64,000 nt of DNA from Pseudonocardia sp. ICBG1293 (GTDB taxonomy: Bacteria; Actinomycetota; Actinomycetes; Mycobacteriales; Pseudonocardiaceae), in contig NZ_JAHLEL010000009.1 of the NCBI RefSeq assembly GCF_020131355.1, positions 62,001-126,000 of the forward strand. Direction: 5' to 3'. A program made the translations under genes and the position numbers. Positions 28,580 to 29,362 of this stretch are shown here, in pieces; position 1 is the first letter of the stretch, and each line of letters starts with the position of its first letter. The notes under the pieces are model-generated. The model saw nothing but the letters and a program-made list of their open reading frames with translations, was not told the DNA's origin and did no database searches.

Positions 28580-29362
28580 GTGGATCTCCTGGTCAACCTG
28601 GCCGAACGCGCGGTGCTCCGGCACGGCCTCACCACCGCCGCGACGATCGACCGCTGGTACGACCACCACGCCGACGAGGTCGGCCCCCGCGCCGGCGCCC
28701 GTGCGGTCGCCCGGATCTGGACCGGGGCCGGGCGGTCCGACACCGCGGACGCGGTCGGTGCCCGGCTCGGCCACTGCGGGTGCGGCCGGGTCTGGCGCAC
28801 CCACCGCGACACCCCCGGTGTCCGCAACGTGGTGCTCCCCGCCGCGACCGGGTGCAGTGGCTGGCCGGTGCTCGGGGTGCCCCCGAGCTGGTACCGGCCG
28901 CGCTCGGAGTACCTGCTCGACGTCGCGGGGGAGACCGGCCCCGGGGTCCGCACCGCGATCTGGTCGGACTCGGCCCGCGTCCACCACCTGGTCGTGCCGT
29001 GTGCGCCGGAGCGGTGCGGCGACGGCCCGGCCGACCTGGAGGGACGCGTCAGCCGGGCGGCGCTGCGCGGTCTCGACCCCGCTCCGCCCCCGGCACCGCC
29101 GGACGCGCGGTGGGCCCACGGCCTGCCCGGTTACGACCTCGACGAGCGGCTGCTCGACCGGCCGTGGCAGCTCCGCTCGGTGGCACTCGTCCTGGCCGTC
29201 GGGACCGACCGCCCGGACCTGCGCCCGTTGCTCGCCGCCGCGGTCCACGCGTCGCCGTCGGCGGAGTTCTACGCCGCATGGCCGGCCGCGGCGGCCGCGG
29301 CCGTGCGGGCCGTCACGACGCCGCGCCGATCCGGGGGCATCACAGCGCCGCCAGGAGCATGA
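28580..29362 (+). CDS. Degenerate NHase alpha-like domain fused to accessory-like domain
   Basis: 260 aa. Residues ~1-125 align with NHase alpha: 'LAERAVLRHGLTTAATIDRW', 'DEVGPRAGARAVARIWTG' and 'GWPVLGVPPSWYRP' mirror 'TTAAVDRLAEVH', 'NEVGPQLGAKVVAKAWT' and 'PWPVLGLPPNWYKA'. The metal loop C-T-L-C-S-C has become P-A-A-T-G-C, keeping only the last cysteine. Residues ~185-250 resemble the accessory/beta N-terminal family: 'DRPWQLRSVALVLAV' against 'SEPWELRAFAMAVAA', then a short 'EFYAAWPAAAAAAVRA'. GTG 28580 has GGAG at 8 bases. It is almost certainly not a catalytic subunit; a maturation scaffold, metal handler or regulatory decoy are possible. An extra HCGCGRV cluster near residue 60 could bind metal. 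Confidence 0.72.
   Translation: MDLLVNLAERAVLRHGLTTAATIDRWYDHHADEVGPRAGARAVARIWTGAGRSDTADAVGARLGHCGCGRVWRTHRDTPGVRNVVLPAATGCSGWPVLGVPPSWYRPRSEYLLDVAGETGPGVRTAIWSDSARVHHLVVPCAPERCGDGPADLEGRVSRAALRGLDPAPPPAPPDARWAHGLPGYDLDERLLDRPWQLRSVALVLAVGTDRPDLRPLLAAAVHASPSAEFYAAWPAAAAAAVRAVTTPRRSGGITAPPGA

Follow-up and report, generated by a model that had tools for sequence, protein, structure and literature searches.

A fused alpha-like and probable accessory-like protein with an altered metal claw encoded beside a Pseudonocardia nitrile hydratase operon

In a 64,000-nucleotide stretch of the Pseudonocardia sp. ICBG1293 genome (contig NZ_JAHLEL010000009.1, positions 62,001 to 126,000; hereafter the window), the genes for a nitrile hydratase (NHase) and its accessory protein are followed by a gene for a 260-residue protein that combines, in one chain, an NHase alpha-like domain and a probable accessory-like domain. 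The gene occupies positions 28580-29362 of the plus strand, with a GTG start codon at 28580 and a stop codon ending at 29362. Its product has lost the metal-binding claw of the alpha subunit and carries a partly new, invariant set of three cysteines. We tentatively favour the view that this fusion protein handles cobalt during maturation of the enzyme encoded next to it, while rating the chance of this as less than even. A chance open reading frame (ORF) or a misread frame was excluded, as database proteins at 41-91% identity (the range of seven relatives) span the ORF and third-position GC content is 0.92.

Domain build of the fusion protein

The N-terminal part of the fusion has the fold of the NHase alpha subunit (residues 1-171; 28580-29092, plus strand). 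The Pfam NHase_alpha profile matches residues 8-145 with an E-value of 9.6e-14 and a score of 51.6 bits against a gathering cut-off of 27.2. The best PDB sequence matches extend to residue 169-171, indicating that the alpha-like part comprises ~170 residues. The initial annotation had recognised this likeness but placed its end at residue 125. The fold likewise agrees with that of alpha subunits, and Foldseek matches for the whole predicted model cover the alpha part only. Where the two can be aligned, the fusion is 28% identical to the window's own ordinary alpha subunit. Relative to alpha subunits in general (PF02979/TIGR01323), the fusion has the same fold but lacks the CxLC[ST]C motif, scores 65.5 bits with the TIGR01323 equivalog model (cut-off 249.85), and has an additional C-terminal domain.

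The C-terminal third is probably related to the accessory/beta-N family, a relationship that is weak but exceeds our controls. From the family alignment and the relatives, the domain is placed at approximately residues 178-245 (29111-29314, plus strand) and has the pattern PGYxxDERxxDxPWxLR. The C-terminal part of the window protein gave no direct match to Pfam or NCBIfam, and a Foldseek search with this domain alone returned no matches at E <= 0.001. Similarly, no match to the accessory-protein model TIGR03889 (cut-off 46) was found in the window protein (P0001), P0014 or P0015 at E-values up to 1, or in P0005-P0011 at E-values up to 10. A Pfam scan of 10 fusion proteins detected NHase_beta_N (PF21006) in one of them, P0008, with an E-value of 8e-4 and 19.9 bits against a cut-off of 21.5. 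When the C-terminal part of the family was aligned with six accessory proteins using hhalign, a match over 16 columns had an E-value of 2e-6, a probability of 89.5 and a score of 38.5, compared with 19.9 for the best of 200 column shuffles. The corresponding alignment with beta-N scored 19.2 (E-value 0.0094, probability 4.4), with a shuffle maximum of 17.9. The earlier suggestion that the second half is accessory-like is therefore upheld by a profile-profile match that exceeds shuffled controls, but not by a direct match to TIGR03889. The fusion domain shares the PWELR helix and, judged by eye, the LPG lead-in with the NHase accessory protein; it is, however, shorter and sits behind an alpha domain.

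Claw loss and a conserved cysteine and histidine set

In the fusion, the claw sequence C-T-L-C-S-C has become P-A-A-T-G-C (28838-28855, plus strand), eliminating two claw cysteines and the serine and leaving the last claw cysteine, C92, as an invariant residue. This change had already been read from the window protein, and it extends to the close homologues, with the claw kept in none of the 11 fusion sequences. The initial annotation overlooked a second invariant motif, C66-x-C68-G-R, which lies in the loop corresponding to NHase alphaGln89/90; C66-G67-C68 (28775-28783, plus strand) is present in 10/10 family rows. In a set of 45 proteins, CxCGR is present and the claw absent in 11/11 fusion sequences, and the claw is present and CxCGR absent in 32/32 ordinary alpha subunits (the remaining two proteins are a beta subunit and an accessory protein). 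The only invariant Cys and His columns in the ten unbroken family rows are H30, C66, C68, C92, H135 and H136 (H135-H136 at 28982-28987, plus strand), and any further cysteine column is occupied in fewer than three of the ten.

Alpha-subunit positions are given in the P. thermophila count, which was derived from PDB titles (alphaT109, S112, Y114, W116 and S162) and the aligned sequence. G69 pairs with Gly90; the partner of C68 is Gln89 in the profile alignment and Leu88 in the single-sequence one. We take Gln89 to be equivalent to Gln90 of the Fe-type enzyme, assuming that numbering is one higher there. The alphaGln90 residue lines the NHase active site. The title of one PDB entry refers to a mutational study of alpha-Gln90. 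A conserved arginine (Arg167) is the counterpart of H135 in the alignment and is presumably alphaR157 of the C. testosteroni enzyme. In extracts of PMC7193024, alphaR157, H80 and H81 are described as catalytically important in NHase.

The predicted model places C66 and C68 before strand 71-76 and C92 after strand 81-86 of a single hairpin. Because the cysteines flank the strands of one hairpin, all three should be neighbours, and we infer that they are close in space. The appearance of two new invariant cysteines and of invariant histidines in the part of the fold where two claw cysteines were lost fits better with a rebuilt metal (or redox) site than with an inactive scaffold. The description of the metal site as dismantled thus remains accurate for the two lost claw cysteines, but does not take into account the new invariant C66 and C68 and the invariant histidines.

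Distribution of the family and its genomic setting

The fusions constitute a real family of limited spread. In protein searches with eight members, where the best 7998 candidates (those sharing most words) were scored, nine unbroken family proteins were recovered at 328-400 bits and the next match reached 120 bits; P0001 is the tenth member. A quick tree of 48 rows unites the fusions as a single clade, well apart from ordinary alpha subunits, with an SH-like approximate likelihood ratio test (SH-aLRT) value of 100, on a long branch and with long-branch warnings. The two relatives with a source name are annotated plainly as "nitrile hydratase subunit alpha". The fusion gene is present in 6 of 62 Pseudonocardia genomes (E-value 1e-20), and all family copies placed in a genome belong to this genus. 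A profile search of genome contigs with the family alignment found at least two loci.

We also considered a family wider than the genus and found no support for it in class, family or plasmid searches. The class sample (394 genomes, six candidates scored per genome) contained no member outside Pseudonocardia; seven genomes match at an E-value of 1e-25, the best besides the window genome reaches 110 bits, and the window's ordinary alpha and fusion score 106 and 376 bits, respectively. The family sample (297 genomes, eight candidates scored per genome) likewise held no member outside the genus, with 78 genomes matching at an E-value of 1e-3, at least 113 bits in five genomes, all Pseudonocardia, and at most 72 bits elsewhere. 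Both sets are samples, and the absence beyond the genus applies to the genomes sampled. Nine plasmid records matched, all annotated nthA, and none spans 80% of the query.

The placement of the gene beside NHase genes, first noticed at this one locus, holds in 5 of the 6 carrier genomes, where the fusion lies within an NHase gene cluster of one of two operon types. In the window and in genomes G155 and G050, the order is amidase, beta, alpha and accessory, followed by the fusion. P. broussonetiae and P. ammonioxydans have beta, alpha, accessory, amidase and fusion in succession, with gaps between amidase and fusion of 17 and 2 nt, respectively. The broken copy of P. dioxanivorans lies outside the cluster, ~5.4 kb from the beta gene. 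Beta subunits are 47-52% identical between the operon types and amidases ~35%, indicating that the association of the fusion with NHase has lasted over a long divergence. An ArsR relative (44-89% identity) is found near the NHase genes in all five other fusion-bearing genomes.

In the window itself, the fusion does directly follow a complete beta, alpha and accessory set, as had been reported. All of these genes are on the plus strand. The amidase gene (25187-26746; NF005565, 714 bits) lies 5' of the beta gene (26743-27447; TIGR03888, E-value 6.8e-77), which is followed by the ordinary alpha gene with a CTLCSC claw (27451-28083; PF02979, E-value 1.3e-87; TIGR01323, 300 bits). The ATG of the accessory (activator) gene (28080-28487; 135 residues; TIGR03889, E-value 2.2e-18, 66.0 bits, cut-off 46) overlaps the alpha stop codon, and a 92-nt gap separates the accessory gene from the fusion. 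An ArsR-type regulator gene is located upstream (23210-23614, plus strand). A promoter and terminator scan of 26600-29700 detected none of either, a result that is uninformative either way for an actinobacterium. Two more NHase alpha genes are present in the source genome outside the window locus.

Several other genes around these loci were recorded. Between the ArsR and amidase genes, the product of 23645-25079 has no match in Pfam (E-value 0.1), NCBIfam (E-value 1) or PDB sequences (E-value 0.01); by eye, we take it to be reminiscent of amide-sensing substrate-binding proteins. A DUF5134 protein with a His-Gly-rich loop is encoded on the opposite strand at 29340-29963, its gene sharing 23 nt with the end of the fusion gene, and a linalool dehydratase/isomerase family protein is encoded at 30419-31768 (PF18566, E-value 5.5e-82). 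In G050, a gene between accessory and fusion (L039:6784-7626; product P0046) has a stop codon that overlaps the fusion start. P0046 has no Pfam match, ends in a CC-x12-C-x2-C tail, and at its C-terminal end bears a weak resemblance to FhuF-type siderophore-iron reductase models, with E-values of 0.0055 and 0.064, below cut-offs. It was not found by tblastn (E-value 1e-5) in the window or at four other fusion loci, and because it is seen at G050 alone, we do not build a role on this FhuF-like gene. The ordinary alpha of G050 (L039:8102-8713) reads WPVLPP, two residues short of WPVLGLPP, with the adjoining CTLCSC intact. In P. broussonetiae, the gene after the fusion (L041:5390-6595) encodes a membrane-type protein that neither Pfam nor NCBIfam matches convincingly; the broken fusion of P. 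dioxanivorans is likewise followed by a protein 71% identical to it (L038:10823-11974).

Possible functions and relation to known systems

Extracts of PMC7193024, PMC3511329 and PMC4709657 describe maturation of Co-type NHase through an alpha-accessory complex, in which cobalt is inserted into alpha and a pair of claw cysteines becomes oxidised; through their salt bridges with this oxidised pair, beta arginines are thought to draw the loaded alpha into the enzyme. The fusion would unite both partner folds in a chain where that oxidised claw pair cannot form, which suggests a stable, cobalt-holding, one-chain mimic of the alpha-accessory mediator. In this mechanism, C66, C68 and C92, perhaps together with H135, would coordinate Co(II) (or Zn). 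The C-terminal domain would dock on free alpha or on its complex with the accessory protein, and the metal would be passed to the true claw of alpha. With only the last claw cysteine, the fusion could adopt the shape of the mediator without being swapped into the enzyme. The alpha-plus-accessory build, the claw loss and the NHase link hold across profiles, nine relatives and two operon types. Sequence alone is compatible with each of the roles raised in the initial annotation (scaffold, competitor and cobalt handler); the last is the one we favour.

Several observations count against a cobalt-handling maturation factor. NHase alpha is matched in 56 of the 62 Pseudonocardia genomes and the fusion is absent from 50 of these 56, so the enzyme presumably matures without it, and an ordinary accessory gene is already present in the cluster. 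Two of the six copies in the genus are broken, with an in-frame stop and frame changes in G155 and a frame change in P. dioxanivorans (G169); the four open copies are those of G000, G050, P. broussonetiae (G271, the same protein as P0009) and P. ammonioxydans (G301). Between the window and G050, the ratio of nonsynonymous to synonymous substitution rates (dN/dS) is 0.44 for the fusion, compared with 0.16 for alpha, 0.18 for accessory, 0.25 for beta and 0.17 for amidase; between P. broussonetiae and P. ammonioxydans, it is 0.55 for the fusion, 0.16 for alpha and 0.21 for beta. Six pairwise comparisons give 0.44-0.64 for the fusion, although pairs between operon types are not telling because alpha and beta also reach 0.42-0.62 there. 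Purifying selection acts less strongly on the fusion than on the adjoining genes, yet 53 of 214 gapless columns are invariant in ten rows. Fast evolution and broken copies would be expected if an alpha-accessory gene pair had been duplicated and the copy were decaying, with little or no function left. We consider this improbable given the invariant columns, a cysteine set that is absent from ordinary alpha, and the retention of the gene beside two operon types.

The predicted geometry of the cysteine site is itself insecure, because the loop containing C92 is poorly modelled (mean predicted local distance difference test score, pLDDT, of 51 for residues 91-100), and the invariant residues could equally hold a structural zinc or a disulfide. 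As a structural zinc scaffold, the protein would use CxC and C (plus His) to hold Zn and so stabilise the fold after loss of the cobalt centre, and would be an assembly chaperone without metal transfer. Such a scaffold agrees with the cysteines flanking a beta hairpin, as they do in zinc-ribbon-like knuckles, but does not by itself account for the tie to NHase operons, and seems unlikely. The domain build, claw loss and gene position could also mark a decoy or brake. By occupying accessory, alpha or beta, such a chain would restrain the exchange of subunits and match enzyme production to the supply of cobalt or amide, and its new cysteines would form a sensor or have a purely structural part. 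Presence in 6 of 62 genomes would suit such a modulator; a pure competitor, however, needs no new invariant set of CxC, C and His, and we regard this explanation as somewhat unlikely. A small enzyme that uses another metal centre to act on nitriles or similar compounds would explain why the alpha fold retains much of WPVLGxPPSWY beside the old site. With no beta C-terminal domain found by Pfam, and the claw and serine lost, it is very improbable.

NHase is an industrial enzyme, and how cobalt is delivered to it is still argued; extracts of PMC7193024 and PMC4709657 discuss subunit swapping, a direct hand-over from the activator, and a combination of the two. A natural fusion unable to assemble the catalytic centre pulls apart two roles, that of holding metal and that of donating a subunit, and would be a clean test object. 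If cobalt is bound at second-shell positions, the fusion would be a case in which an enzyme fold has had its metal site rebuilt. It is a real, if doubtful, possibility that the family is a new class of metallocentre maturation factor, in which a subunit and its swapping chaperone share one chain, the claw is erased, second-shell positions around the former active site supply a new cobalt-thiolate site, and a permanent mediator is never consumed into the enzyme. More immediately, some database entries titled "nitrile hydratase subunit alpha" are without the active site.

Full-text searches of an open-access library turned up no such alpha-accessory fusion, and the nearest systems differ from it in distinct ways. 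Leader peptides related to nitrile hydratase (NHLP), as presented in extracts of PMC2887384, also reuse NHase-alpha-related sequence outside the enzyme, but they are peptide precursors and the window fusion has no NHLP match. A reading as a ribosomally synthesised and post-translationally modified peptide (RiPP) precursor was rejected, since P0001 has no leader_NHLP match in NCBIfam at E-values up to 1. The Monosiga brevicollis NHase is likewise a natural fusion in the family but joins beta to alpha, and the activators of fused beta-alpha NHases are described as still undiscovered in PMC7193024. The engineered NHase-(BAP14K) of Pseudomonas putida, in extracts of PMC4709657, has alpha covalently joined to its activator, as in the fusion, but is man-made, includes beta and has an alpha that gives active enzyme. 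The closest parallel is with the alpha-accessory mediators of Co-type NHases (NhlAE, NhhAG and alpha(P14K)2; extracts of PMC3511329), which also pair an alpha fold with an accessory-type domain and are encoded beside the enzyme. In the known mediators, the partners are distinct polypeptides and the claw is intact and undergoes oxidation, whereas the fusion is a single chain in which the claw is gone and other cysteines are conserved.
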